64,000 bases of DNA, from NCBI RefSeq assembly GCF_001402915.1, contig NZ_CP012945.1:3697501-3761500 (forward strand), in the 5' to 3' direction. Under the pieces are notes generated by a model, which searched no databases, was not told where the DNA came from, and saw nothing but the letters and a program-made list of their open reading frames with translations. This document shows, one piece after another, positions 32,100-45,757 of the stretch (its first letter is position 1; every line of letters starts with the position of its first letter). This DNA comes from Devosia sp. A16. GTDB taxonomy: Bacteria; Pseudomonadota; Alphaproteobacteria; Rhizobiales; Devosiaceae. The position numbers and the translations under genes are program-made.

Positions 32100-34463
32100 C
32101 TAAAGTTTTCCCCGAACCCCGGCGGTAATGCTGAGGCTGTAGCTGTCGCCCACGTGGCTGAGGCTGGTGCCGACATTGGCCTCGCCATAGAGCGAGAGGG
32201 CGTCGCCGGCCCAGTTCACCGAGCCGCCGAGGCCGACGGTGCCCCAGAGCGGGTCGCTCTTGCTGGTCAGCGTGTCGCCGCCGATGCTGGTCGCCGTGCC
32301 ATCGAGGAACTCGTAACTGAGGGTGGCAATGCTGTAGAGCCGGCTCCGCCCGGTGTCGCCGGCAGCATCCTGCCACTCGATCTCGTAGTCGGCCGAGATC
32401 CCGAGGCGGCCGATGAGGCTGTCGCCACTCTGCAGCGCCACTGTCGCGCCGTAGGTTTCGAACTCGTCGAATTCGACCGACGAATAGCTGAGCTGCGCCT
32501 GCGGGGTGACCGACCAGTTGTCGCCGAAGTCGATCTCCTGGCCCGCCTCGAGGCTGAGCGCATAGCCGAAGCCGGCATTGCCCGAAACGATGGTGGTGTC
32601 GAGCGTTTCGGAATTCAGCGTGCTGTCAAACCAGGTGAACCGGCCTTGGGCATCGAGATAGAAGCCCCCCTTGCCGTACCAGGTCAGCGTGGCGCCAAGG
32701 CCGTAGCCGTTGCTGTCGACGCTGCCGATGCCGGAGGCGGCGCTGATATCGGCCGAGATGGCGCCGTAGTAGGCATTGACCCCGGCCACCAGCGTGTCGG
32801 CGTCGTTCGCCGTGAGTACGCCATCGAGCCCGGCCTGCAGCTTCCACGTGGTCACGTCGTAGCCGGCGCCGGTCGACGAATCCGGCGCGATAGAAACGCG
32901 CCCGCCCTCGATGCGACCCCACAACCCGCTGCCGTCGGACAACGTGCGGTTACCGATGCGCTGAGCAAGGCTCTCGGTCGTGTTGAAGGTCTGCAGGGCT
33001 GCCCCGACATAGGCTTCGATGACTGGAGCGCCCGGCTGGAACACCGGCTCGTCGTCGATAATGTTGCGCAGGTACCAGTCGCCGTCGCCGTTATTCTGGT
33101 AGAGCCCATAAAGATAGGCACCGCCGATCACCGCCTGCTCGCCGTTGAAGGTGGTATCGCCCAGGAGGCTGAAGATGCCGTCGGAGGTACCGCCGATATC
33201 GACGATCTTGATGCCGGTAGTGGTTACTCCGCCGACGCCGCCCATGTTGGTGACGGCGACATTGGTAGTGCCGGAGGTATTGCCGGTGACGACGAGCCGA
33301 TCGGTGAGCGACGAGTCGTCGCCCAGCACCGTGTCGATCAGCAGCGTGTTGCCCGAGCCGGCGTAGTCGCCGTTCAGTGTCAGTGTGCCGATGGCGTTGT
33401 CGCCTCCGGGCGAGATCACATCGGCGGTAAGCACCTTGCTGCCGAGGACGACCGTGCCGCTGCCGGCGAGGCGCGGGGCCGTGATGCCGCCGGCGGTGAT
33501 GCCTGAGATATCGAAGGTGCCGTCGGCGACAATGCCGCTGGTCCCGGCAAGGGAGCCGGAACCGGTCAGCGCCAATGTGCTGCCGCTGCTGATGCGGGTC
33601 TGGCCGGCGTATGTGCTGGCCTCGCTGAGGGTGAGCGCGCCTGCGCCGGTGACGGCCAAGCCGCCAGCGCCGCTAAAGCCCACCGCGCCGATGGCGAAGC
33701 CGTTGGTGTCCACGGTCAGCCCGCCGGCCGCGATGGTCAGCTGGTTGACGGCAAACCCATTGGTGAAGTTGGCATTGTCGGCGAGCGCACGAAGCGTGCC
33801 ATTGTCGAAGGTTGCCTCCGCGGTCCCGGCCAGCTTGCTCAGACCGGTCGTCGCCAGCACGCCGCCGCTCCTTACGTTGAGCGCACCGGAGACCGCAGCA
33901 TTGAATGCCATGCGTACGCCGCTCTGCGCCGTGACCAGCGCCCCATTCTCGATGTTCAGAGTTCCGGAACCGGTGCCGCCGACCGTCAGGTTGCCAGTGG
34001 TCGTCCAGCGCGATCCCGCGCCGGTGACGGTGACGGTGCCGTTGCTTCCCACCGCCGACCCGATGCTGGCGACGCTACTCGACAGTGCGCTGCCATTCTG
34101 GACAGTCAGGCTCGCCGTCGTGCCGGCCGAGCCGATCAGGAGGCCTGCCGTACCGACCGTCTGGGCGCCGCTCACCCCCAGCACCGTCGGATTCGCCGCC
34201 GAAGTCCCGATCGTGATGCCGACCACGCCCGGCACCACCCCGCCGCTCCAGTTCGACCCGACCGTCCAGTCGTTGCTGGTGCTGCCGGTCCAGACCTGCG
34301 CCATGGCCGGGCCGGCGAGCAGGATCGCAAGGGTGGTCACTGCCGCGCCGGCGAGTCGCCGCGTGAGAGCGGCGCGCGCTGGTGCACCTGAGCCGCCCTC
34401 GTGATCGCACAGGAAACCAGCTGTTCGCTCGCCCGGTGCGCTCATCACAATGATCATCTTCAT
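32100..34463 (-). CDS. autotransporter, passenger plus beta-barrel (paralogue 2)
   Basis: A 787-aa type V secreted protein. A long leader with hydrophobic core ('AAVTTLAILLAGPAMAQ') precedes a passenger made of Gly/Thr/Ser-rich beta-strand repeats ('GSGTLNIENGALVTA', 'TYAGQTRISSGSTLALTGSG'), as in autotransporter-associated repeat proteins. The last 270 residues form the outer-membrane barrel ('GLWGRIEGGRVSIAP' to 'GDSYSLSITAGVRGKL'). ATG at 34463 follows GCGAGAG; GTG/ATG codons up to 10 codons later are also possible. It is a paralogue of the next gene upstream; the last 136 bp are almost identical in both. Probable surface adhesin or cover protein. Confidence 0.85.
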   Translation of the reverse strand: MKMIIVMSAPGERTAGFLCDHEGGSGAPARAALTRRLAGAAVTTLAILLAGPAMAQVWTGSTSNDWTVGSNWSGGVVPGVVGITIGTSAANPTVLGVSGAQTVGTAGLLIGSAGTTASLTVQNGSALSSSVASIGSAVGSNGTVTVTGAGSRWTTTGNLTVGGTGSGTLNIENGALVTAQSGVRMAFNAAVSGALNVRSGGVLATTGLSKLAGTAEATFDNGTLRALADNANFTNGFAVNQLTIAAGGLTVDTNGFAIGAVGFSGAGGLAVTGAGALTLSEASTYAGQTRISSGSTLALTGSGSLAGTSGIVADGTFDISGITAGGITAPRLAGSGTVVLGSKVLTADVISPGGDNAIGTLTLNGDYAGSGNTLLIDTVLGDDSSLTDRLVVTGNTSGTTNVAVTNMGGVGGVTTTGIKIVDIGGTSDGIFSLLGDTTFNGEQAVIGGAYLYGLYQNNGDGDWYLRNIIDDEPVFQPGAPVIEAYVGAALQTFNTTESLAQRIGNRTLSDGSGLWGRIEGGRVSIAPDSSTGAGYDVTTWKLQAGLDGVLTANDADTLVAGVNAYYGAISADISAASGIGSVDSNGYGLGATLTWYGKGGFYLDAQGRFTWFDSTLNSETLDTTIVSGNAGFGYALSLEAGQEIDFGDNWSVTPQAQLSYSSVEFDEFETYGATVALQSGDSLIGRLGISADYEIEWQDAAGDTGRSRLYSIATLSYEFLDGTATSIGGDTLTSKSDPLWGTVGLGGSVNWAGDALSLYGEANVGTSLSHVGDSYSLSITAGVRGKL
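32121..32256. repeat. 136-bp near-identical segment, copy 1 (pairs with 34735-34870)
   Basis: This segment at the 3' end of the autotransporter gene differs from 34735-34870 by a single base with no gaps, while the sequence just beyond 32256 drops sharply in identity to the other copy. It codes the last barrel strands. Confidence 0.9.
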
Positions 34464-34480
34464 CTCTCGCTTTGGCGAGT

Positions 34481-34636
34481 GGCCTCGCCGGTGGTCCGCC
34501 GGTCGCATCGACAAGATGCGACTATTCATTCAGTCCAGACAGTGAGTTATTCGAAACGTGGGACACGCTAGTGATGCGCTGCCTCGACTTGAAAACTAAC
34601 CGTCAAGCACAGTTTTGGTCGACCTTCGACTAAGCT
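34481..34636 (-). repeat. shared autotransporter leader, copy 1
   Basis: The leader of this autotransporter gene shares two blocks with the leader of its paralogue: GGCCTCGCCGGTGGTCCGCC at 34481-34500, and at 34614-34636 a 23-base block reading AGCTTAGTCGAA...CCAAA on the minus strand (two differences). The distal block is about 151 bases before the start codon, consistent with a promoter or operator. Confidence 0.7.
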
Positions 34637-34713
34637 TGGGGAAGCGCAAGGGAGGGCCGCCAGATGCGGCATCTACTCCGCCGAGCGGCGACCCAACCCG
34701 CACCAGCCGCCGA

Positions 34714-37611
34714 TCAGAGCTTCCCCCTGATGCCGGCGGTAATGCCGAGGCTGTAGCTGTCGCCCACGTGGCTGAGGCTGGTGCCGACATTGGCCTCGCC
34801 ATAGAGCGAGAGGGCGTCGCCGGCCCAGTTCACCGAGCCGCCGAGGCCGACGGTGCCCCAGAGCGGGTCGGCCTCGTTGACGAGGGTATCGGCGCCGACG
34901 CTGGTAGCGAGCCCGTCCAGGAACTCGTAGCTGAGGTTGGCGATGCCGTAGAGGTGGGTGCGGCCGGCTTCGCCGGAAGTGTCCTGCCACTCGGTTTCAT
35001 AGTCGGCGGAGAGGCCGAGACGGCCGATCAGGCTGTCGCCGCTCTGCAGCGAGACGGTCGAGCCGTAGGAGTCGAAGTTCTCGAAATCGACTGAGGAGTA
35101 GGCGAGCTGCGCCTGCGGGGTGACCGACCAGCCATCTCCCAGCGCCAGTTGTTGGCCGGCCTCGAGGCTGAGGGCGTAGCCGAAGCCGGCATTGCCGGAG
35201 ACCACAGGACCATCGAGCAGGTCGGCGCTGAGGGTGCTGTCGAACCAGTTCAGCTTGCCCTGCGCGTCGAGATAGAATCCCTCGCTGCCGTACCAGGTGA
35301 GCGTGGCGCCCAGGCCGAAGGCGGTGCCTTCGATGGCGCCATCGCCGGAGGCCGAGCTGATGGCGGCCGAGATGGTGCCGACCTGGAGGTTGACGCCGGC
35401 GACGACCGAGCCGTCCTCTGTCTCGCTGAGCACGCCATCGGCACCGGCCTGCAGCCGCCAGGTGTCGACGTCATAGCTGGCGCCGGTTGTCGAGTTGTCG
35501 GGGGCGAGCGAGGTGCGGCGGGCATCGATCCGGCCCCAGATGCCGTTGCCCTCGGCGCCGCCGGACCACGAGCGGTTGCCGATCCGTTGCTGCAGGCTTT
35601 CGCTGGTGTTGAACGACTGGAGCGCGGCGGCGGCATAGGTCTCGATGACCGGCGCGGCCGGCTGGAACACCGGAGTGTCGTCATCGGGGTTGAGGATCGA
35701 GCGCAGGTACCAGTCGCCATCGGCGTCAGTGAGGGTGCCCTGGTAGAGGCCGTAGAGATAGGCGCCGCCGATCACCGCCTGCTGGCCGTCATGGACGGTG
35801 TCGCCGAGGAGGCTGAACGTGCCGGTGGACGTGCCGACCACGTCGATGATCTTGATGCCGTCGGTGGTCTGCCCGCCGCCACCCCCGAGGTTGGTGACGC
35901 GCAGGTTGGTGGTGCCGGTGCTGTTGCCGGTGATCGTCAGCAGGTCGGTGAGGGAGCCGTCGCCGCCCAGAACGGTCTGGGTCTGCAGCAGCCCGCCAGC
36001 GCCGGTGTAGTCGCCGTCGATGGTCAGCATACCGATACCGTTGCTGCCGGGGGCGATGGCGCCACCCACGGCGAGGCTGGTGCTGCCGACGATGCCGGTG
36101 CCGGCAAGCGTGCCGCCCGTGACGTTCACCGTGCCGCCGAGCTCGCCGTTCACCTCGAGCATGCCGCCGCTGATCGTGGTGAGGCCGGAAAAGCCGAGCT
36201 GGTCGGCACCGAAGATGGTACGCCCGGCGATCTGGTTGATAGCGCCGGTGCCGTTGATCGGCAGGTCGAAGACGTAGCCGGTTTCGGTGTGGTTGAAGTT
36301 GACCTCGGCGCTTGCGGCGAGGGTGATGGCCAGAGCCTCCAGCGTGCCGGCTGCGGTGGCCGCTTCGCCCACCGCGCCGCCGATGTTGAGGGTGGCGTTG
36401 CTGTTGACGTTGGTGCCGCCGAGGATGAGCGCGGACGCGCCGCCGTTCACGACGACCTTGCCGTCATTGGCGATGGTAAGCGTGCCCGTGCCGGTGGTGC
36501 CGACGGTGATCGTGCCGGCACGGAGCTCGGACCCGGCTCCGGAAACGAGGGCCGCAAAGTTCGGCACGGCACCCCGGTTGCCGTTGGCGATGAAGGCGGA
36601 GGTCGCCGTGACGAGGCCGCCATCGGTCACCTGCAGCGTGCCCTGCTGCATGTAGAGCGTCTCAGCCTCGAGCTTCGATCCGGAGCCCGTGACGGTAGCG
36701 TGAAGAACTGCGCCGGCCGTTACTGTCGTCCCGGACGCTCCGAAATTGACGTGGGTCGCGGAGTCGAACAGGCCGCCATTCCGGATGTTGAGGAACGACT
36801 CGCCGCTCAGCGTGGCGTTGAGGCTACCGGTGAGGATCGCCGACCCGGCCCCGTCGACGGTGATGGTGCCGTTGCGGATGCGAATGCCCGCCGCACCCGT
36901 ATCCAGGCGACCCTGGTTTTCCACCAGCAGGGTGCCCTGGGACGTCCCGCCGCCGATATCGAGCGGATCGCTTCCGGTGGCGACAAGCTTCGTCCCTGCG
37001 CCCGAGATCGTGAGGCTCGCGACTTCGCCGGGATTGGTGCCGAGGCCCAGTTGCGTGATCGTCCCGCCCTGCGAGGTTCCGAACGTGATGACGCTGCCGC
37101 CGTTGACGAGCGTGTTGCCCCCGCCAAGGCCGAGCCGGGAGATGCCGGACGCGGTCACGCCGTTGATGATGAGCTGCCCGGCACCAAGCTTGCCGAACGC
37201 CTGCGGATTGAGGCCGCCGGTGCCCACGATGTTGCCGGTGAGGGTGAGCGTTGCGCCGCTTGCGACATTGAAGCTGGCGGCAGAACTGTAGGTGAGCGTG
37301 TTGGCGCCGGTGGCGATGGTGATGGCCTTGCCCGCGATCGCGGGGGGCGGGCTGGTTATGGAGAAGCTGCCGGTGAGCGTGATGGTCGAGGACGGATCGC
37401 CGCTCGCCTGGGCATCGCTGATCGCCTGGTACAGCTCCGTCTGGTTCGCCGCGGTGAATGCCGCCGCGCTCACCGGGGTCACCAGTGAAACGATCGCCAG
37501 CGTCAGCAACGAGACACCCGAGAAGAGGGGGGCAGCGCGCCCGGCCCCGCAGACGCGCGCGGCACGGCGCACGGTGCCTGCGGCACCGGCATTCGAACTC
37601 AGTCCTGTCAT
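34714..37611 (-). CDS. autotransporter, passenger plus beta-barrel (paralogue 1)
   Basis: A 965-aa autotransporter. A long basic leader and hydrophobic core ('GVSLLTLAIVSLVTPVSAAA') are followed by a passenger of Thr/Gly/Ala-rich beta-helix repeats ('ITGSGSKLEAETLYMQ'-like units, 'GTLTIANDGKVVVNGGASAL') and an outer-membrane barrel of about 280 residues ending 'DSYSLGITAGIRGKL'. The barrel starts near 'GNGIWGRIDARRTSLAPDNS'. Length and style fit surface-exposed passenger proteins. It lies downstream of the MurQ-importer-kinase operon on the same strand and upstream of its paralogue; its own leader repeat suggests separate control. Confidence 0.86.
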   Translation of the reverse strand: MTGLSSNAGAAGTVRRAARVCGAGRAAPLFSGVSLLTLAIVSLVTPVSAAAFTAANQTELYQAISDAQASGDPSSTITLTGSFSITSPPPAIAGKAITIATGANTLTYSSAASFNVASGATLTLTGNIVGTGGLNPQAFGKLGAGQLIINGVTASGISRLGLGGGNTLVNGGSVITFGTSQGGTITQLGLGTNPGEVASLTISGAGTKLVATGSDPLDIGGGTSQGTLLVENQGRLDTGAAGIRIRNGTITVDGAGSAILTGSLNATLSGESFLNIRNGGLFDSATHVNFGASGTTVTAGAVLHATVTGSGSKLEAETLYMQQGTLQVTDGGLVTATSAFIANGNRGAVPNFAALVSGAGSELRAGTITVGTTGTGTLTIANDGKVVVNGGASALILGGTNVNSNATLNIGGAVGEAATAAGTLEALAITLAASAEVNFNHTETGYVFDLPINGTGAINQIAGRTIFGADQLGFSGLTTISGGMLEVNGELGGTVNVTGGTLAGTGIVGSTSLAVGGAIAPGSNGIGMLTIDGDYTGAGGLLQTQTVLGGDGSLTDLLTITGNSTGTTNLRVTNLGGGGGQTTDGIKIIDVVGTSTGTFSLLGDTVHDGQQAVIGGAYLYGLYQGTLTDADGDWYLRSILNPDDDTPVFQPAAPVIETYAAAALQSFNTSESLQQRIGNRSWSGGAEGNGIWGRIDARRTSLAPDNSTTGASYDVDTWRLQAGADGVLSETEDGSVVAGVNLQVGTISAAISSASGDGAIEGTAFGLGATLTWYGSEGFYLDAQGKLNWFDSTLSADLLDGPVVSGNAGFGYALSLEAGQQLALGDGWSVTPQAQLAYSSVDFENFDSYGSTVSLQSGDSLIGRLGLSADYETEWQDTSGEAGRTHLYGIANLSYEFLDGLATSVGADTLVNEADPLWGTVGLGGSVNWAGDALSLYGEANVGTSLSHVGDSYSLGITAGIRGKL
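34735..34870. repeat. 136-bp near-identical segment, copy 2
   Basis: This is the partner of 32121-32256, offset by exactly 2614 bases, with one mismatch. It encodes the same C-terminal barrel strands of the upstream paralogue. Confidence 0.9.
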
Positions 37612-37635: not shown

Positions 37636-37795
37636 GGCCTCGCCGGTGGTCCGCCCTATGCATTGTCAAGCTTTGATGCGACCAAATCGCTCAATCCGGA
37701 CAATGATTTATTCGCAATGATGACAACGTTAGCTCATGCTGGCCACCTTGGAAATGACACTATTGATCACAATTTGGCCGACTTTCGACTAAGCT
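37636..37795 (-). repeat. shared autotransporter leader, copy 2
   Basis: Blocks matching the leader of the downstream paralogue are GGCCTCGCCGGTGGTCCGCC at 37636-37655 and the AGCTTAGTCGAA...CCAAA block at 37773-37795 on the minus strand, about 162 bases before the start codon. The distal block overlaps the last codons of the kinase gene. Confidence 0.7.
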
Positions 37796-38709
37796 CGCAG
37801 GGCGAGGTCCAGTGTGCTGGTTTGCATCAGCGCTGCAGCCAATGCGGCGTCGGAGCGGCGGACGTGAACTGTCTCCGCGGCCAGCATCCGGCCGACCTGC
37901 TCTCTCACCACCAGGTGCAGGTCGAGCACCCGGCCAACCAGCACAACCGGAAGGCTGCGCGTGCGCCCGATCAGTGCTGTGGCGAGGCGGGCCAGCTCGG
38001 TGCCCGCGGTGCGCAGGATCGCTGCCGCGGCCGCATCGCCGCGGGTGGCGGCGCGAGCCACGGCAACGGAGAGCACGCCAATGCGACCGCGGTCGCCGCC
38101 ATAGACGTATTGGCGCACGTCATCCCAGGTGCTGCCGCCGATGGCGCCCAGCAACTCTTCGGCCAACACCGGGTCGCCGTCGAATGAAGCGTGGCGATCG
38201 AAGCCACGGTAGATGTGATCGATGGCCCGCAGCGCGATCCACGCGCCCGAGCCGGCATCGTCGATCAGCATGCCTCGACCACCGACGCGGATTCTCGATC
38301 CATCCGCGCCGATATGCAGGCCATACGAGCCGGTGCCGGCCGAAACCAGGTGCCCTTCACCCGGCGAGAACTGCTCGAGATAGGCGAGCGTCATATCGTC
38401 GACGGCAACGACGTTCGCAGGCGGAATGCCCAGCGGCTGGGCCAGCAACGCCCTGACGTCAGCCGCGGTGGAGGCGCCAAAGCCGGTCAGGCCTGCGGTG
38501 ACCCGCTCGACGCTGAGGCCCTGTTCAGCCAGAATGCGCGCGACATGCTGGACGGCGCCGGACAGCCGGTGCCTTTCCACGGGCTCGAACACGCGGCCCG
38601 ATGCCCCACCTGCCTCGCCGCGCGCAACCACAGCGCCCGAGGCGTCACATGCGACCCATCGGCTGGCGGTTCCGCCGATATCGAAGCCAAGCCGGACCGG
38701 GATACTCAT
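37789..38709 (-). CDS. BadF/BcrA-type sugar kinase (MurK/GlcNAc kinase-like)
   Basis: A 306-aa ASKHA-fold kinase. It has the phosphate 1 loop 'GFDIGGTASRWVACD', 'GLTGFGAST', 'GHLVSAGTGSYGLHIG' and 'GGRGMLIDDAGSGAWIALRA', the pattern of BadF/BadG/BcrA/BcrD-family GlcNAc and MurNAc kinases such as clostridial MurK. It probably phosphorylates the imported amino sugar at C6 in the cytoplasm. It ends the operon that also holds MurQ, which needs a 6-phosphate substrate, so MurNAc or a close relative is the inferred substrate. It starts 6 bp after the second permease stop. Confidence 0.82.
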   Translation of the reverse strand: MSIPVRLGFDIGGTASRWVACDASGAVVARGEAGGASGRVFEPVERHRLSGAVQHVARILAEQGLSVERVTAGLTGFGASTAADVRALLAQPLGIPPANVVAVDDMTLAYLEQFSPGEGHLVSAGTGSYGLHIGADGSRIRVGGRGMLIDDAGSGAWIALRAIDHIYRGFDRHASFDGDPVLAEELLGAIGGSTWDDVRQYVYGGDRGRIGVLSVAVARAATRGDAAAAAILRTAGTELARLATALIGRTRSLPVVLVGRVLDLHLVVREQVGRMLAAETVHVRRSDAALAAALMQTSTLDLALRA

Positions 38710-38715
38710 GACGGT

Positions 38716-39552
38716 CTAGCCCTTCACGGCGCCAGCCGACAGCCCGGCCACCAGGTAGCGCTGCACCACGAGGAAGAAGGCCAGTGCGGGCAGGGCGAAG
38801 ATCACTGCAGCCGCCATCATCTGACTCCAGTCGAGCGTGTACTCGCCGCGGAACGAGGTGAGGCCCACCGACAGCACCCATTGGTCCTGCGAGGCGATCA
38901 GCGTGCGGGCGAGGAAGAACTCGTCCCAGCCCGAGATGAACGACATCGCGACCACCACGACCAGGCCGGGCAGGGATAGCGGCAGGATCACCCGATAGAA
39001 GGCGCCCAACTGCGAGCAGCCGTCGATCATCGCCTGCTGCTCGATTTCGACCGGGATCTGGTCGAAGAAGCCTTTCAGCAGCCAGATGGCCAGCGGGAGG
39101 ATGAAGGCGGTGTCGGCGATCGCCAGACCAACAAGGCTGTTGTAGAGCCCGATCTGCTGGAAGATGACGAATAGCGGCACGACGATCAGCGCCGCGGGCA
39201 GCAGCTGCGAGAACAGGATGATGACGGTGAAGACCGAAGTGGTCCTGGTCTTGAAGCGCGACAGCGCATAGGCCGCATTGATGGCGATGATGGTCGAGAA
39301 CAGCGAGGTGCTGCCGGCAACGATCAGGGTGTTCAAGAGCCAACGGCCGATGTCGCGCTCCTCGAAGATGGTCCAGTAGGACTCGAGGCTGAACCCGCTC
39401 GGGATCAGGTGCGGCGGCCAGGTGAAGATGCTGTCGGTTTCGACCGAGGAGACGAACATCCAGTAGTAGGGGAAGAACACGATGGCTGCGCAGACCAGCG
39501 TCAGCACAAACCAGAACGCGTTGAGGATCGACTTCTTGCGCGTCGGGGTCAT
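38716..39552 (-). CDS. carbohydrate ABC transporter permease (MalG side)
   Basis: A 278-aa permease with six membrane segments. The EAA loop reads 'EIEQQAMIDGCSQLGAFYRV' and the C-terminus 'YLVAGLSAGAVKG' is the usual CUT1 ending. Its ATG overlaps the stop of the partner permease by 4 bp (ATGA). With the partner at 39549 and binding protein at 40521 it makes the importer of the MurQ operon. No ATPase gene is in the operon. Confidence 0.92.
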   Translation of the reverse strand: MTPTRKKSILNAFWFVLTLVCAAIVFFPYYWMFVSSVETDSIFTWPPHLIPSGFSLESYWTIFEERDIGRWLLNTLIVAGSTSLFSTIIAINAAYALSRFKTRTTSVFTVIILFSQLLPAALIVVPLFVIFQQIGLYNSLVGLAIADTAFILPLAIWLLKGFFDQIPVEIEQQAMIDGCSQLGAFYRVILPLSLPGLVVVVAMSFISGWDEFFLARTLIASQDQWVLSVGLTSFRGEYTLDWSQMMAAAVIFALPALAFFLVVQRYLVAGLSAGAVKG

Positions 39553-40442
39553 TTGGCCTGGTTGCTCCGCATGATGCTCCAGAAATAGACGAGGCTGAAC
39601 GCCAACAGGATCAGCAGCAGCACGGTGCCGACAGCAGCCGCGTAGCCGACGCGCTGGTACTCGAAGGCGGTATTGTAGGTCAGGACGGACAGCGTCTCGG
39701 TCGAGCGGGCAGGGCCGCCGCGGGTCATCGCATAGATCATGGTGACGCGCCGGAACGAGTTGAGGATCAGCAGCAGGATCAGGATGACGTTCACTGACCT
39801 GAGGCCGGGAAGCGTCACATGCACGAAGCGCGTCCACGCCCCGGCGCCGTCCATCTTCGCGGCTTCGTACTGTTCCTCGGGAATGGTCTGCAGGCCGGCG
39901 AGCAGGATCAGCATGGCCAGGGGGAACTGCTGCCAGGCGGTCAGCACGACAAGCGCCGGCAGCGCCAGATGCGATTGCGACAGCCATGCCTGCGGCTGCT
40001 CGATGACCCCGATCAGCACCAGCAGATAGTTGCCGACGCCGAATTGCGGATCGAGCATCCAGGCAAAGATCAGGACCGCGACGACTTCCGGGATCGCCCA
40101 GGGCAGGATGAAGATCGTCCGGATGAAGCCGCGGCCTTTGAAATCCCGGTTCAGCAGCAGGGCGAAGCCCAGGCCGAGAACATAGGTGCAGATCACCGAG
40201 GCGGCGCCGTAGATGGCGGTCACCTTGAGCGAGTTCCAGAAATACTCGTCCTGGAACAAGGCGTTAAAGTTGGCGAGCCCGATGAACTTGCCGGCCGAGT
40301 AGTTGAGGATCCTGGTGTTGAAGAAGCTCAGGGCGACGCCCTGCACGATGGGCCAGATCAGGATCACGGCAAGCAGGACCGCAACCGGACCAAGCAGCCA
40401 GATCGGCAGCCAGTTGATGCGTTGCGTGGTGGCTCGTGGCAT
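39549..40442 (-). CDS. carbohydrate ABC transporter permease (MalF side)
   Basis: A 297-aa permease with an N-terminal segment 'LLGPVAVLLAVILIWPIVQG', family loop 'GKFIGLANFNALFQDEYFW', EAA loop 'EQYEAAKMDGAGAWTRFVHV' and 'AMTRGGPARSTETLSVLTYN'. ATG at 40442 was chosen over GTG at 40454. It follows the binding protein gene by 78 bp and overlaps the second permease by 4 bp. Membrane partner for uptake of the amino-sugar-type ligand inferred from MurQ and the kinase. Confidence 0.92.
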   Translation of the reverse strand: MPRATTQRINWLPIWLLGPVAVLLAVILIWPIVQGVALSFFNTRILNYSAGKFIGLANFNALFQDEYFWNSLKVTAIYGAASVICTYVLGLGFALLLNRDFKGRGFIRTIFILPWAIPEVVAVLIFAWMLDPQFGVGNYLLVLIGVIEQPQAWLSQSHLALPALVVLTAWQQFPLAMLILLAGLQTIPEEQYEAAKMDGAGAWTRFVHVTLPGLRSVNVILILLLILNSFRRVTMIYAMTRGGPARSTETLSVLTYNTAFEYQRVGYAAAVGTVLLLILLAFSLVYFWSIMRSNQAK

Positions 40443-40520
40443 TGGCGTTCTCACATTGGAGCGCAGGAACGTCCCGGGGGCGGCGGGAGCCGTCCCTCGA
40501 AACGGGGAGTGGGGAGGCTG

Positions 40521-41765
40521 CTAGAGCGTTGCCTTCCAGTTTTCCAGCTTGGTCTGGAGGCTGTTCAGCCCGTCTTCGACCGACGCCTTGCCCGAATAGA
40601 TCTCCGACAGAGCGTCGACCACCATCTGACGGAACTCGGCGGCCTGGATCAGGTAGCCCGGAGGAGCGTAGCCGATGCCGCCCGGATACTGCGCTGCGAT
40701 ATCGGCCATCTTGCCGACCCAGGCATTCTTGGCGAGGAATTCGGGACTCGCCTGCACCTTGGTGCCGGGGATCTGCAGCAGATCCTCGAGCCAATGGCGC
40801 TGCGCATCCTCGCTGAGATAGGCGGTGAGCAGCTTGCAGGCGGCATCGGGGTTCGGCGACTTGGCCGGGATCACGTAGAATGCACCGCCGGTGATCGCGG
40901 CATGGGTCGGGGTCGGCACCACCTCGAAGTCGATGTCGGCCATCATTTCGGGCTTCTGGCTCTGCACCTGCGTCATCAGCCAGGGGCCCTCGAACATGAT
41001 GGCGACCTTGCCGTCGAGGAACAGGTCGCGCGCCTGGATCACACCGAGACCGACCGGGGCGAGTTGCTCGTCCATGAATCGCTTGATCCAGCCGATCGCC
41101 TCGATGTTCCTGGGGTCGTTGGCGGTGATGGTGCCATCGGGCTGCGACCAGTCAGAGCCGTAACCGAGCACCCACTGCATCGAGTTGATATAGACGTGCA
41201 GCGGTGCGGCCATGTCGTTGCCGAAGGCGTAGCCATAGGCGCCGGTCTTCTCCTTGACCGCCTTGGCGGCGGCGTAGAGTTCCTCGACCGTCTTGGGCAT
41301 CTCGGCGATGCCGGCATCGGCCAGTAGCTTCTTGTTTACCACCACCGACCAGGGGCTCATGGTGAGCGGCACGCCATAAGTCTTGCCGTCCACCTGGGCA
41401 AAGCTCACCGAAGGCAGCAGGCGGTCGCCGAAGCCGCCATCGGCGATGCACTGGTCGAGCGGAGCCAACGTGCCAGCGTCGATCATCGGCGGCAGCATGG
41501 AGGTGAAGGCGGTCATCAGGTCGGGCACCGCGCCACCGGCGATCTGCGTGGTGACGACCTTTTCGAAGTCGGCGGACGGAATCTGGGTCGGCGTGACCTT
41601 GATGCCTTCGGCCGCCTCGAACTGAGCGGTGTTCGTCTTGAACCAGACGCCCACATTGCCCTCTTCCCACATCCAGCTTGGAACGCTGAGGCTCTGTGCC
41701 TGGGCGCTCCCGATTGCGAGGCTCAGCGTCGCAGCTGCGGCAGCGGATAACAGAAGGTGTTTCAT
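40521..41765 (-). CDS. ABC transporter sugar-binding protein of the MurQ operon
   Basis: A 414-aa periplasmic binding protein. The signal peptide ('LLLSAAAAATLSLAIGSAQA') is followed by 'QSLSVPSWMWEEGNVGVWF' and 'GGAVPDLMTAFTSMLPPMID', then 'GKTYGVPLTMSPWSVVVNKK' and 'FEGPWLMTQVQSQKPEMM', all usual for CUT1 proteins. Its start overlaps the MurQ stop by 4 bp, so the two are translated together. This tight link ties the transported ligand to MurQ chemistry, that is MurNAc, an anhydro form or a small muropeptide sugar. The ligand has not been shown. Confidence 0.9.
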   Translation of the reverse strand: MKHLLLSAAAAATLSLAIGSAQAQSLSVPSWMWEEGNVGVWFKTNTAQFEAAEGIKVTPTQIPSADFEKVVTTQIAGGAVPDLMTAFTSMLPPMIDAGTLAPLDQCIADGGFGDRLLPSVSFAQVDGKTYGVPLTMSPWSVVVNKKLLADAGIAEMPKTVEELYAAAKAVKEKTGAYGYAFGNDMAAPLHVYINSMQWVLGYGSDWSQPDGTITANDPRNIEAIGWIKRFMDEQLAPVGLGVIQARDLFLDGKVAIMFEGPWLMTQVQSQKPEMMADIDFEVVPTPTHAAITGGAFYVIPAKSPNPDAACKLLTAYLSEDAQRHWLEDLLQIPGTKVQASPEFLAKNAWVGKMADIAAQYPGGIGYAPPGYLIQAAEFRQMVVDALSEIYSGKASVEDGLNSLQTKLENWKATL

Positions 41766-42721
41766 CTACTAGTCTCCCTTGCTTGTACGAATTCGGAGCC
41801 CCCGCCCCGTATCTGCGCCGCGTCCAAAGCGGCGCGGAGAATGCCTCGAGCTTCCGCCAGTCGCGCTGCCGCCTGCGGGGTGTCGAGTCCCGAGAGCAAC
41901 ACAAAAACGGCGAGCTTGGTGTTGTGGTTGGCGCCTGCCAGAGCTTCGCGGGCTTGCTCGGTGGAGCAGCCCGTCGCCTGCACGACAATGCGGACAGCGC
42001 GGGCCCGCAGCTTTTCGTTTGTCGCCCTCAGGTCGACCATCAGGTTGCCGAAGACCTTGCCCATTCGCACCATGCTGGCCGTTGTCAGCATGTTGAGGAT
42101 CAGTTTCTGTGCCGTCCCCGACTTCAGCCGGGTCGACCCGGCCAGAACTTCCGGCCCGACCTCTGCGGCAATCGAAATGTCCGCATCGCGCGTGATTGGG
42201 GAGCCGGGGTTGCAGGTAACGGCAATCGCCCTGGCCCCAAGGCTGCGAGCATAACGCAGCGCCGAGCCGGCATAGGGCGTTCTGCCCGATGCTGCGAGTC
42301 CCACCAGCACGTCGGTGGCGGCGAAGCCGATCCGTTGCAGGTCGGCTATCGCCGCTGCCTCGTCATCTTCCGCGCCTTCCACCGCATGTCGAAGGGCATG
42401 GTCGCCGCCGGCGATAAGGCCCACCACCATCGACTCGTCGACGCCGAAGGTGGGCGGGCATTCGGAGGCATCGAGAACGCCGAGGCGACCGCTGGTGCCG
42501 GCGCCGACATAGACCAGTCTGCCGCCGACGCTGAAAGCTGCAACGATGCAGCCGACCGCTTCCGCGACCTCGGGGAGGACTCTCGCGACAGCTGCCGCTA
42601 CTGCGTGATCCTCGCCATTCATTGCCCGAACGAGCTCGATCGCGCTCATGCGATCGAGCTGATCTGTCCGGGGGTTGCGCGCCTCCGACACCAGTCCTTC
42701 CAGTTCCGACAGCAGTTCCAC
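41762..42721 (-). CDS. murQ: N-acetylmuramic acid 6-phosphate etherase
   Basis: A 319-aa SIS-fold lyase that splits MurNAc 6-phosphate into GlcNAc 6-phosphate and D-lactate. It begins with the family signature 'SEARNPRTDQLDRMSAIEL' and shows 'GAGTSGRLGVLDASECPPTF' (catalytic Glu), the second acidic motif 'EGAEDDEAA', 'GLAASGRTPYAGSALRYAR' and 'AGSTRLKSGTAQKLILNML'. Length is slightly over the usual 300. It follows the oxidoreductase gene by 21 bp and overlaps the binding protein gene by 4 bp. No PTS transporter (MurP) is near; a kinase and ABC importer take its place. Confidence 0.93.
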   Translation of the reverse strand: MELLSELEGLVSEARNPRTDQLDRMSAIELVRAMNGEDHAVAAAVARVLPEVAEAVGCIVAAFSVGGRLVYVGAGTSGRLGVLDASECPPTFGVDESMVVGLIAGGDHALRHAVEGAEDDEAAAIADLQRIGFAATDVLVGLAASGRTPYAGSALRYARSLGARAIAVTCNPGSPITRDADISIAAEVGPEVLAGSTRLKSGTAQKLILNMLTTASMVRMGKVFGNLMVDLRATNEKLRARAVRIVVQATGCSTEQAREALAGANHNTKLAVFVLLSGLDTPQAAARLAEARGILRAALDAAQIRGGGSEFVQARETSR

Positions 42722-42742
42722 CTCGCTCTCCTCCCCGACAGC

Positions 42743-43762
42743 CTAGACGGCGAGCTGTACGGGCTGGCCGAGGCGAGCCGCATCGATCAGGGCGCTGATG
42801 ATCCTGGTGTTGGCGAGCCCATCCTCGCCGGTGGCCAGCACCGGTTTGTCATGCAGCACCGCCTCGACGAAATGCACCACCGCATCGAGCACGAAACCGG
42901 TCAGGTGCGGGCCGAACGGCGGCACCAGCATATCGGGGAACGTGCCCTTTTCGCTGGTATAGAGTTCCATCGTGCGGTTGTGCGACCCGTCGATGTTGAT
43001 GGCGCCCTTGCTGCCCAGGAACTCGAGCTTGAGGTCCTTCACCGTGTTGTAGGTGCGCGGCAGGATCCAGGCGTGCTCGAACACGGCCACGGTCCCCTTG
43101 GCATATTCGACGGTCGCGACGTGGAAATCCGGCGCGTCGACGCCCAGGTCCTTCAGCACTCCGTCGCGCGACACCACGTAGGCGCGCACCGGCTTGTCGT
43201 CGAGAATCCAGCCGACGACATCGATCATGTGGCTGCCCAGGAACCACAGTGCCGACGAGTTGCTCGACCATTTCAGCATGTCCTGGGGCACGGCAACGGT
43301 GTTGCTCAGTCGGGCATAGACGTAGGACGGCCTGCCGATATCGCCACGCGCCACGGCGTCGCGCGCCGCCACCATTGGCGGATTGGCCCGATTGTGGAAA
43401 TCCACCATCAGCTTGACGCCGGCCTTGCGAGCGGCGTCGATCATCGCCTCGGCATCCTCGACGGTCGTCGCCAGCGGCTTTTCGACCAGGATGTGCTTGC
43501 CGGCTGCAATGGCGGCAAGAGTCGCGGCACGGTGGGCATGGTCGGGCGTCGCGATCGACACCGCCACCACGTCCGGGTCGGCGAGCACTTCGTTCAGATC
43601 GGTGGTGTATTTGCCCGCACCATAGGTCTCTGAGATGCGCTTGGCGCGTGCCTCGTCGAGGTCGCAGACATACTTGAAATCCACCAGCGGATGGCGGCTA
43701 TACGCCTGAGCGTGCCTTTCGCCGAACAAACCGGCACCAACCAGGGCAAAACCGTTCTTCAT
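42743..43762 (-). CDS. Gfo/Idh/MocA family oxidoreductase
   Basis: A 339-aa NAD(P)-dependent sugar dehydrogenase. The Rossmann start is 'FALVGAGLFGERHAQAYSR', then 'VSIATPDHAHRAATLAAIAA', the catalytic lysine in 'ILVEKPLATT', and 'WFLGSHMIDVVGWILDD' with the conserved Gly-x-His. ATG at 43762 puts the Rossmann motif at the N-terminus. It is the first gene of the MurQ-importer-kinase operon and divergent from the hybrid regulator gene. It may oxidise the imported sugar or an anhydro form before or instead of MurQ action; this is inference. Confidence 0.9.
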   Translation of the reverse strand: MKNGFALVGAGLFGERHAQAYSRHPLVDFKYVCDLDEARAKRISETYGAGKYTTDLNEVLADPDVVAVSIATPDHAHRAATLAAIAAGKHILVEKPLATTVEDAEAMIDAARKAGVKLMVDFHNRANPPMVAARDAVARGDIGRPSYVYARLSNTVAVPQDMLKWSSNSSALWFLGSHMIDVVGWILDDKPVRAYVVSRDGVLKDLGVDAPDFHVATVEYAKGTVAVFEHAWILPRTYNTVKDLKLEFLGSKGAINIDGSHNRTMELYTSEKGTFPDMLVPPFGPHLTGFVLDAVVHFVEAVLHDKPVLATGEDGLANTRIISALIDAARLGQPVQLAV

Positions 43763-43825
43763 AACTTCCTCGTTCCGAGAGCCCGGCGTGGGCTTTTGCC
43801 GGCCCTTCACTTTCGCTGCTCTTTA

Positions 43826-43852
43826 TGATACCGGTATTATATTGCGGTATCA
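43826..43852. promoter_or_regulatory. inverted repeat, candidate operator of the GntR-LacI hybrid regulator
   Basis: TGATACC and GGTATCA are perfect 7-base inverted arms with a 13-base centre, 64 bases upstream of the oxidoreductase start codon. The placement suits repression of the MurQ operon by the divergent regulator. Confidence 0.5.
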
Positions 43853-44060
43853 GGATATGGACGCACAATCGTGCAGCCAGACGTCAATCGCGGAGTCCAA
43901 CCATTGGGGCAGGGCATCCCGGACTGCATACCGCCGACATCGAACGTGCCGCGGTTCTTTGGGAAGTGCCATTTATCTCGCCTCGCACCACGAATGACGT
44001 GCTATCCGCCCAAAGACCGGCTACATGGTTGTGAGCCGGTATCTTAACGGTCTGATAGTG

Positions 44061-44069
44061 GTATGATAC
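44061..44069. promoter_or_regulatory. GTATnATAC palindrome upstream of the hybrid regulator gene
   Basis: GTATGATAC is a 9-base palindrome of the GT-N-AC sort bound by GntR/HutC-type winged helices, 30 bases before the regulator start. It shares the GGTAT core with the inverted repeat at 43826-43852, so it may be an autoregulatory site. Confidence 0.4.
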
Positions 44070-44099
44070 ATGTCCTACAAAACTCGTCAATAGAGCGTC

Positions 44100-45182
44100 A
44101 TGGATAAGACCGGTACCCTTGTAACCCTCCTGTTGGAGAGGATTGAAAACGGCCAGTACCCCGCCGGAGAAGCGGTGCCCTCCGAGCGTCAACTGGGCGA
44201 GGAACTCGGGCTGTCGCGCACCACGGTACGGCGGGCCATCGACGACCTGGTGCAGCGCGGCCGCCTGCAGCGCCAGCCCGGTCGCGGCACCTATGTCGCC
44301 AGCGAGGTGGTGGCGAACGACGCAGCGGCCAGGGCGCAACGCATCGTCTCGGTGATCATACCGAGCTTCTCGAACCCCTATTACGGCGAGATGGTCAACG
44401 GCATCGAGAAGGAGGCTCGCCGCTACGACCTGCGTGTGATGGTCGGACAATCGGACTATTCGACCGCAAGCGAGAGCGCCCAGCTCAGCCAGTCTGCGCT
44501 CGATCCTGCGATCTGCGGTGCCTTGGTGGTTCCTGACTCGGTCGGGCAGCCATCCGGCGGCGTGCAGCAGTTTCGCTCAGCCGGTAAGCCGCTGGTCTAC
44601 ATTGGACGCTGGCCCAAGGGTGTGGCCTGCGACGGCGTGTGTGTCGACTACCGGATGGCCGCTCTGCAGGCAGTGGAGCATCTTATCGGGCTGGGGCACG
44701 AGCGCATCGCCTACGTTGCGGGCTTGCCGCATCTGCCAGGCTTTTCACCCTATGACGGCTACGCTGAGGCCGTGCGTGACCACAGGATGTCGATCGGGCC
44801 GGAACTGGTTCGCACCTACGAGCTGCCCTCGGAGGCTGCAGGACGGCAGGCCGTTGCCGACCTCGTGTCGAGCGGAGTCAAGTTTACCGCCATCTTTGCC
44901 CGCAACGACGTGACGGCAATGGGCGTCATTCAGGGATTGCGCGAGGCCGGTCTGCTTGTGCCACGGGACGTCTCAGTGGTCTCCATCGCCAATAGCCTGT
45001 GGTCGCGTTCCCTCGATCCGCCGCTGACCAGCGTGAACCCTCACCCCGGCCCGGTCGGCCAGTTGGCAATGCGGATGCTGAACGATCGACTGGAGGGGAC
45101 CTACACCGGCCCGCCTATCAAGACGATAGTTGCTCCCGACCTCATCATCCGGGCATCGACAGCCCAGCTGCTGACCCCCTGA
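44100..45182 (+). CDS. GntR-LacI hybrid transcriptional regulator
   Basis: A 360-aa regulator that joins a GntR winged helix at the N-terminus ('[20 protein letters not shown]', '[15 protein letters not shown]') to a LacI-type periplasmic-binding sensor domain ('[20 protein letters not shown]', '[20 protein letters not shown]', ending '[10 protein letters not shown]'). This AraR-like architecture senses a free sugar. It is divergent from the MurQ operon and is its likely repressor; the co-oriented acetyltransferase gene begins 17 bases after its stop. Confidence 0.9.
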
Positions 45183-45199
45183 GGGAACCGGAGGTTCGC

Positions 45200-45757
45200 A
45201 TGGAAGCGATCGGCATCGTGTCATTCACGAAACTCACGGCGGCGCAGCGCGAGTCCGCCGCGGAGATACTCGTCGCCGCGCTCGCACATGCCCCGGGCGC
45301 CTGGAAAACCATGGATGCGGCGCGCAACGTTGTCGCCAGGCTCACGGCTGACCCGAAATGGAGCGGCCTTGCGGCGGTGGCCGACGACGCCGTGTTAGGT
45401 TGGGTCGGGGTGGTCGAGCGCTATTCGCAGGCCTGGGAACTGCATCCGCTCGCCGTCGCTCCGGCTGCTCAGGGGCGGGGCATCGGCCGGCAACTGTTGA
45501 CGGCGCTCGAGGACAAGGTCCGCGCGGCCGGCGTCCTGACGCTGTATCTGGGCAGCGATGACGATTTCGGCGGCACGACGGCGTTTGGCGCCGACCTCTA
45601 TGCCGATATGGCATCAGCGTTGCGCGATCTGGCCGCGGTACCCGGTAGCAAGCACCCGCTCGAATTCTACCGCAAATGCGGGTTTCAGGTCATCGGCTTC
45701 ATCCCCGACGCCAACGGGACGGGTAAGCCGGACATCTGGCTGGGCAAACGTCTGTAG
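45200..45757 (+). CDS. AAC(6')-like GNAT N-acetyltransferase
   Basis: A 185-aa acetyl-CoA dependent transferase. It has the acetyl-CoA loop '[20 protein letters not shown]' and, further on, '[12 protein letters not shown]', '[11 protein letters not shown]' and '[18 protein letters not shown]', a set I associate with aminoglycoside 6'-N-acetyltransferases. The gene lies 17 bases after the hybrid regulator gene with GGAGG before the ATG, so they are probably co-transcribed. An amino-sugar acetylation role in the neighbouring pathway is as plausible as drug resistance. Substrate not known. Confidence 0.75.

Follow-up and report, generated by a model that had tools for sequence, protein, structure and literature searches.

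How does a bacterium that encodes MurQ, the etherase for N-acetylmuramic acid (MurNAc) 6-phosphate, take up and phosphorylate MurNAc when its genome gives no match to enzyme IIC (EIIC) of a sugar phosphotransferase system (PTS)? The question is raised by a six-gene operon of Devosia sp. A16, found in a stretch of 64,000 nt (the window) of its single-contig genome of 5.03 Mb. In order of transcription, on the minus strand, the operon encodes a Gfo/Idh-type oxidoreductase, MurQ, a CUT1 sugar-binding protein of an ATP-binding cassette (ABC) importer, two permeases, and a BadF-type kinase (Table 1). This layout, with the 4-bp overlap between murQ and the binding-protein gene (41762-41765), the two permeases, the BadF kinase, and a divergent GntR-LacI regulator, had been described in an original prediction made from the window and was confirmed. 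The operon is real and conserved, and it unites ordinary parts in an uncommon combination. With a probability of roughly 0.55, we read it as a substrate-induced operon for the catabolism of MurNAc or of a saccharide that releases MurNAc. The binding protein and the two permeases would import the sugar with the help of an ATPase borrowed from elsewhere in the genome, and the Gfo/Idh enzyme would perform some step on it. The kinase would phosphorylate MurNAc at C6, MurQ would split MurNAc 6-phosphate into N-acetylglucosamine (GlcNAc) 6-phosphate and D-lactate, and NagA, for which two genes of the genome score over the cut-off, would continue the pathway. The GntR-LacI protein would repress the operon via two palindromes between the divergent genes.

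A conserved operon with a genuine MurQ

The MurQ of the window keeps the conserved glutamates of the SECPPT and EGAED motifs (Glu87 and Glu115), which we take to be catalytic. It is a genuine member of the MurQ family, and its sequence predicts etherase activity. A profile search for PTS EIIC (PF02378) gave no match in the Devosia sp. A16 genome and control matches in 7 of 14 genomes; a MurP-type PTS route was rejected on this ground. The original prediction had asked whether the operon recurs without MurP. In the genome of Devosia sp. A16 it stands without an EIIC match, and the order of the divergent regulator and of Gfo/Idh, murQ, binding protein, permease, permease, (ATPase), and kinase recurs in four relatives, D. 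insulae DS-56 (G376) and the genomes G346, G317, and G363. The arrangement in the window is thus not due to chance. Gene calls in the relatives were mechanical, and some genes were merged or missed; the kinase of G317, for example, was found by tblastn. A further locus, in what is apparently the metagenome-assembled genome (MAG) Devosia ih3 (G394), has a different BadF kinase (34% identity) and another order: kinase, murQ, binding protein, permeases, ATPase, Gfo/Idh. In all six murQ-bearing loci murQ directly precedes the binding-protein gene, and the two genes overlap by 4 bp in the window, D. insulae, and Devosia ih3 and are 12-30 bp apart in the other three.

The importer itself is rare. 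With a threshold of E 1e-60 the binding protein finds a match in 9 of the 136 family genomes, and with one of E 1e-100 in 2 of 397 genomes sampled from the order, Devosia sp. A16 being included in both counts; a plasmid search for the importer found none at E 1e-40. An ATPase gene follows permease 2 in G346, G317, G363, Devosia sp. Root685 (G341), Devosia ih3, and an Alsobacter MAG (loci L068-L072 and L110). No match to this MalK/UgpC-type ATPase was found at E 1e-20 in the whole window, and hence none in the operon; an ATP-binding subunit is not present in the importer loci L066 and L067 either.

Elsewhere in the genome of Devosia sp. A16 a second murQ scores over the TIGR00274 cut-off. It lies with genes for an RpiR regulator, two SBP_bac_5 proteins, a permease, ATPases, a beta-lactamase-family protein, AnmK, and a GH3 enzyme (NagZ-like). 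This is a wall-recycling locus with an Opp-type ABC importer, distinct from the operon in the window. The two MurQ proteins share 64% identity and occupy different places in the MurQ tree, so that the idea of the operon MurQ being a recent duplicate of the recycling MurQ was rejected. In that tree five operon MurQs stand apart from the recycling MurQ with support of 91/79, just under the level that the tool marks with a star. The tree is undecided on a common origin of the Devosia ih3 operon murQ and the other five (two label changes).

The kinase and its tie to murQ

Homologues of the kinase were surveyed in the 136 family genomes and found at 72 places in 70 of them. A murQ homologue lies within 10 kb of the kinase at 65 of these places, the remaining seven being on contigs without a murQ in the compiled list, and a search at E 1e-40 detects a murQ homologue in 69 of the 70 genomes. 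The co-occurrence of kinase and importer is weak (8 of the 9 importer genomes against 62 of the other 127; Fisher p 0.02 without correction for kinship). Among structures in the PDB, the Sulfolobus hexokinase 2e2n is closest in sequence (1.2e-12), followed by the MurK of Clostridium acetobutylicum (8zo3; 7.4e-11), and the sole NCBIfam match is NagK_SO3507, at 63 bits against a cut-off of 370. A plasmid search found only distant kinases, all in Deinococcus. The paper on Tannerella MurK (PMC10465942) identifies positions that provide space for the lactyl group of MurNAc. By alignment, the window kinase has the loop G143-G144-R145, V103 before the catalytic Asp, and G78 in place of an Asp of the Sulfolobus enzyme; it lacks the residues by which other kinases reportedly exclude MurNAc. 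Ten aligned kinases of its clade all share Gly78 and the loop; in front of the catalytic Asp they have V, F, M, T, or S, and none has Asn or His there. The kinase belongs to a murQ-linked clade and is a candidate MurNAc kinase. A second class of MurQ homologues, 40-45% identical to that of the window, was seen within 1.2 kb of the kinase at 15 places in the family; two such loci, L049 and L051, retain both Glu motifs and have NanE ahead of the kinase, with a MurQ score below the TIGR00274 cut-off.

Two strains have lost murQ and the kinase together. In Devosia sp. ZB163 (G389) the gap of 213 bp between the Gfo/Idh and binding-protein genes contains a small 5' fragment of murQ along with ~180 bp from its 3' end (blastn 6e-36), and of the kinase residues 1-63 and 239-300 are left. 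In Devosia sp. Root685 the corresponding gap still has ~100 bp of the murQ 3' end (1e-25), and what survives of the kinase is a disrupted 5' fragment of ~255 bp (2.6e-32). Elsewhere the operon matches that of the window at 85-99% identity in ZB163 and at 70-88% in Root685. The two strains fall in different genera of the genome set, and each has sister loci in which murQ and the kinase are both present; the deletions therefore look like independent events. Joint loss is the expected outcome if the kinase makes the substrate of MurQ. Together with the linkage to murQ it argues that kinase and MurQ act as a pair, following MurK-MurQ logic, and as a unit they are well supported.

Both genes are kept in five loci of the window type, that of the window included. 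ZB163 and Root685 each hold another such kinase and murQ elsewhere. At E 1e-50 the kinase occurs solely in this operon in Devosia sp. A16, D. insulae, and G363, all of which retain it; in G346 and G317, which carry a further copy, both are retained. The pair was thus lost in two of the four genomes with a second kinase, and the argument that it is expendable where a second copy exists is suggestive only. Since it was deleted while the oxidoreductase and the importer stayed intact, the pair forms an accessory, removable cassette on a conserved importer-oxidoreductase core.

Ligand of the importer and rival readings

Several observations speak against MurNAc as the substrate of this operon. The nearest solved relatives of the binding protein, mostly binders of di- and oligosaccharides, bind acarbose, maltose, and glucan oligosaccharides, with a binder of chitin oligosaccharides at rank 9, and its structure model is poor at a predicted local distance difference test (pLDDT) score of 57. 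The residues of the kinase appear permissive, allowing MurNAc without being diagnostic of it: even in C. acetobutylicum MurK, Asn and Asp occupy two of the three positions. Regulator, oxidoreductase, and importer persist in ZB163 and Root685 after the loss of the pair, and the Alsobacter MAG has regulator, Gfo/Idh, importer, and ATPase without murQ or kinase; no deletion scars were seen at its locus. The loci of the more distant importer orthologues in G202 and Chelatococcus keep a regulator homologue, while Gfo/Idh, murQ, and kinase are unmatched within ~9 kb. The same holds near the regulator homologue of a Rhodospirillales MAG, whose contig ends just after the gene; the three regulator homologues are 51-54% identical. 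Finally, the ratio of nonsynonymous to synonymous substitution rates (dN/dS), taken from pairwise comparisons of which several have a dS above 1, is 0.10-0.16 for murQ and 0.15-0.24 for the kinase, compared with 0.01-0.06 for Gfo/Idh, binding protein, and permeases; the regulator (0.095-0.097) is close to murQ. Between the window and D. insulae the values are 0.03 for Gfo/Idh, 0.055 for the binding protein, 0.03 for the permeases, 0.095 for the regulator, 0.16 for MurQ, and 0.24 for the kinase, and between G346 and G363 they are 0.03 for both Gfo/Idh and the binding protein, 0.11 for MurQ, and 0.15 for the kinase. These ratios make importer and oxidoreductase the most constrained part of the operon, under purifying selection several-fold stronger than that on murQ and the kinase.

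The predicted structures in general (pLDDT 57 and 59) are poor, and fold searches with them confirm the fold class only. None of nine NCBIfam matches of the Gfo/Idh enzyme reached the cut-off. Two of its relatives on plasmids were looked at: one in Phyllobacterium (46%) lies in another ABC operon, and the surroundings of the other, in Rhizobium leguminosarum CB782, are mostly annotated as hypothetical. Two distant importer orthologues, in L073 (9056-16871) and L113, adjoin amidohydrolases, that of L073 being related to PRK09237 below the cut-off, and L073 also has a threonine-synthase-like enzyme nearby. This context may represent another pathway for the same importer family.

Two options follow for the importer: either it carries MurNAc, and the pair can be substituted in trans, or it carries some other sugar. 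The second is a tentative alternative, in which Gfo/Idh and importer serve, for example, a di- or oligosaccharide, a polyol, or an anhydro sugar, and MurQ and kinase are a hitchhiking cassette for MurNAc salvage, fed for instance by an Opp-type importer. It draws on the three loci that keep the core without the cassette, on the far greater conservation of Gfo/Idh and importer, on the closeness of the binding protein to oligosaccharide binders, and on the one of the two plasmid relatives of Gfo/Idh that lies in another ABC operon. Against it stands the constant place of murQ directly before the binding-protein gene, an association that is kept, at 62-64% identity, even in the differently ordered locus of Devosia ih3. 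Furthermore, homologues of the kinase and murQ lie at other sites in the genomes that lack the cassette (MurQ 60% identical to that of the window in ZB163 and 59% in Root685; the murQ homologues of Alsobacter and Chelatococcus lie below the TIGR00274 cut-off), so that its function may be kept in trans. MurNAc or a MurNAc-containing sugar is the most likely ligand, and import of MurNAc by this ABC system is likely, though unproven.

It is improbable that the Gfo/Idh-importer core provides an oxidative route of entry, not described before, for a muramyl-type sugar, such as an anhydro or disaccharide form, on which Gfo/Idh would act first, MurK and MurQ being an optional phosphorylative branch that can be dropped where a second copy exists. 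Marginally less probable still is a kinase for GlcNAc or N-acetylmannosamine (ManNAc) in a general amino-sugar operon, whose MurQ would handle MurNAc 6-phosphate made by AnmK during recycling: relatives of the kinase do sit with NanE and a CUT1 importer, NanE occurs elsewhere in the Devosia sp. A16 genome, one of 7 among the 9 importer genomes to have it, and the kinase has only a NagK match in NCBIfam and an archaeal hexokinase as its closest PDB match, but the locus that holds AnmK has a murQ of its own, kinase and murQ were lost together, and G363 keeps the pair without a NanE match, all of which leaves the ManNAc-kinase reading weakened.

For the preferred reading, PTS-independent catabolism of MurNAc as originally predicted, the absence of an EIIC match, the real MurQ, the murQ-linked and MurK-related kinase, and the paired loss all count in favor; less well supported is that the importer carries MurNAc, and the importer-Gfo/Idh core persists without murQ and kinase. 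As to the suggested new route, PMC10465942 already describes PTS-independent use of MurNAc by MurTKQ of Tannerella, and PMC9790009 a muropeptide ABC importer in Agrobacterium. In a literature search that many subscription papers lay beyond, no ABC importer for free MurNAc turned up.

Regulation, neighboring genes, and known systems

Eight intergenic regions between regulator and Gfo/Idh were compared. The 8-mer ATACCGGT, on either strand, lies near Gfo/Idh in all of them, and ACATGTATC lies near the regulator in all of them (consensus TGATACNNGTATCA). Candidate operator B, degenerate in the window, is perfect, TGATACATGTATCA, in G317, G341, G346, and G363. A scan of seven genomes for the operator pattern with at most one mismatch gave 2-4 sites each versus 0-2 for a reversed control pattern. 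The fraction of these sites that lies at this operon is 2/2 in G346 and G341, 2/3 in G317, 2/4 in G363, 1/3 in Devosia sp. A16, and 1/4 in ZB163; in D. insulae it is 0/3, and a site with more mismatches is visible there. At the two further sites of Devosia sp. A16, where no family search was made, the matches to operon proteins are only a GntR domain, an ATPase, and a weak LacI-type match. In the window alone, the pattern with up to three mismatches occurs four times against 6.6 expected, which is no excess, and three of the four lie in the intergenic region. It is their conservation across the eight loci that supports the putative operators. The scans of the seven genomes do not support one regulon with the recycling locus. 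The regulator looks local to the operon, less certainly so in the genus of the window.

Table 1. Features of the putative MurNAc-type operon of Devosia sp. A16 and its surroundings (positions in the window)
Feature	Position	Strand	Basis or remark
BadF/NagK-type sugar kinase (MurK-like candidate)	37789-38709	-	PF01869 74 bits, cut-off 31.5
CUT1 permease 2 (MalG-like)	38716-39552	-	PF00528
CUT1 permease 1 (MalF/UgpA-like)	39549-40454	-	PF00528
Extracellular sugar-binding protein of ABC importer	40521-41765	-	SBP_bac_1 130 bits
MurQ, N-acetylmuramic acid 6-phosphate etherase	41762-42721	-	TIGR00274 411 bits, cut-off 302
Gfo/Idh/MocA oxidoreductase	42743-43762	-	PF01408 107 bits
Candidate operator A	43826-43839		TGATACCGGTATTA
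Candidate operator B	44064-44077		degenerate here, 3 mismatches
Divergent regulator, GntR DNA-binding and LacI-type sugar-sensing domains	44100-45182	+	PF00392 65.5 bits, PF13377 104 bits
GNAT acetyltransferase, 3' of regulator	45200-45757	+	PF00583

The start of the Gfo/Idh gene was taken as the ATG at 43762, not the GTG at 43810, and the two permease genes also share a 4-bp overlap. The GNAT gene adjoins the operon also in D. insulae (74%) and has no match at the other seven loci compared; it is probably dispensable to the operon. Its product resembles aminoglycoside 6'-acetyltransferases at 138 bits, below that family's cut-off of 265, and might acetylate an amino sugar. Two autotransporter genes (32100-37611) lie directly downstream of the operon, and the operon of Devosia sp. 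ZB163 likewise precedes an autotransporter.

The E. coli regulator MurR is of the RpiR type, and YepA of Agrobacterium is an oligopeptide-type (SBP_bac_5) binding protein. The binding protein in the window is of the SBP_bac_1 and not the SBP_bac_5 type, and the SBP_bac_5 genes of the genome sit at the recycling locus. A near parallel, MurT-MurK-MurQ of Tannerella forsythia, shares with the operon PTS-independent import, a cytoplasmic MurNAc kinase, and MurQ as the next enzyme, whereas its transporter is MurT instead of an ABC importer, the specificity loop of its MurK is S-P-L and not G-G-R, and the accessible part of the paper describes no Gfo/Idh enzyme (PMC10465942). The same source describes the MurK of C. 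acetobutylicum as acting on MurNAc and GlcNAc. That enzyme is likewise a BadF/NagK-type kinase (PDB 8zo3), but the two share 18% identity in a Foldseek alignment based on a poor model. For human NAGK, MurNAc and GlcNAc are roughly equally good substrates (PMC9477735). MurP-MurQ-MurR of E. coli has the MurQ etherase and a regulator divergent from the operon in common with the window (PMC5061867), but it imports and phosphorylates via the PTS, for which Devosia sp. A16 has no EIIC match. Agrobacterium YejBEF-YepA is also an ABC importer of wall fragments in the Rhizobiales, but it transports muropeptides or peptides, and MurNAc is likely rescued via AnmK-MupP-AmgK-MurU and not via MurQ (PMC9790009).

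A different CUT1 binding protein (SBP41), 26-28% identical to that of the window, occurs in 11 of 32 murQ or importer loci compared; it was counted at an identity of at least 44% to the query copy, and as the loci were picked for murQ or the window importer, this is no order-wide frequency. Eight of these loci belong to the family of the window, one lies outside it, and two are on Rhizobium plasmids (58-59%). The SBP41 system resembles the operon in joining a CUT1 ABC importer with murQ neighbors, and in the eight family loci the kinase is 47-56% identical to that of the window. It differs in its RpiR regulator, where inspected, and in Gfo/Idh, which has a match (29%) in only one of the eight; NanE is present in all eight. 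Behind SBP41 on one of the Rhizobium plasmids come a MurA homologue, a NagK-like kinase, and murQ. On plasmid p5 of Rhizobium oryzihabitans (L107, 5700-8876) a MurA homologue (528 bits, cut-off 393), a NagK-like kinase, and murQ lie in a row, and in L045, from another member of the order, an EPSP-synthase-family gene, a kinase, and murQ form the same row.

Devosia sp. A16 has MurQ and no PTS EIIC match, and this operon and the SBP41 importer are two candidates for MurNAc import by ABC systems. The natural strains that have lost murQ and the kinase alone make the question of MurNAc use in these bacteria testable.

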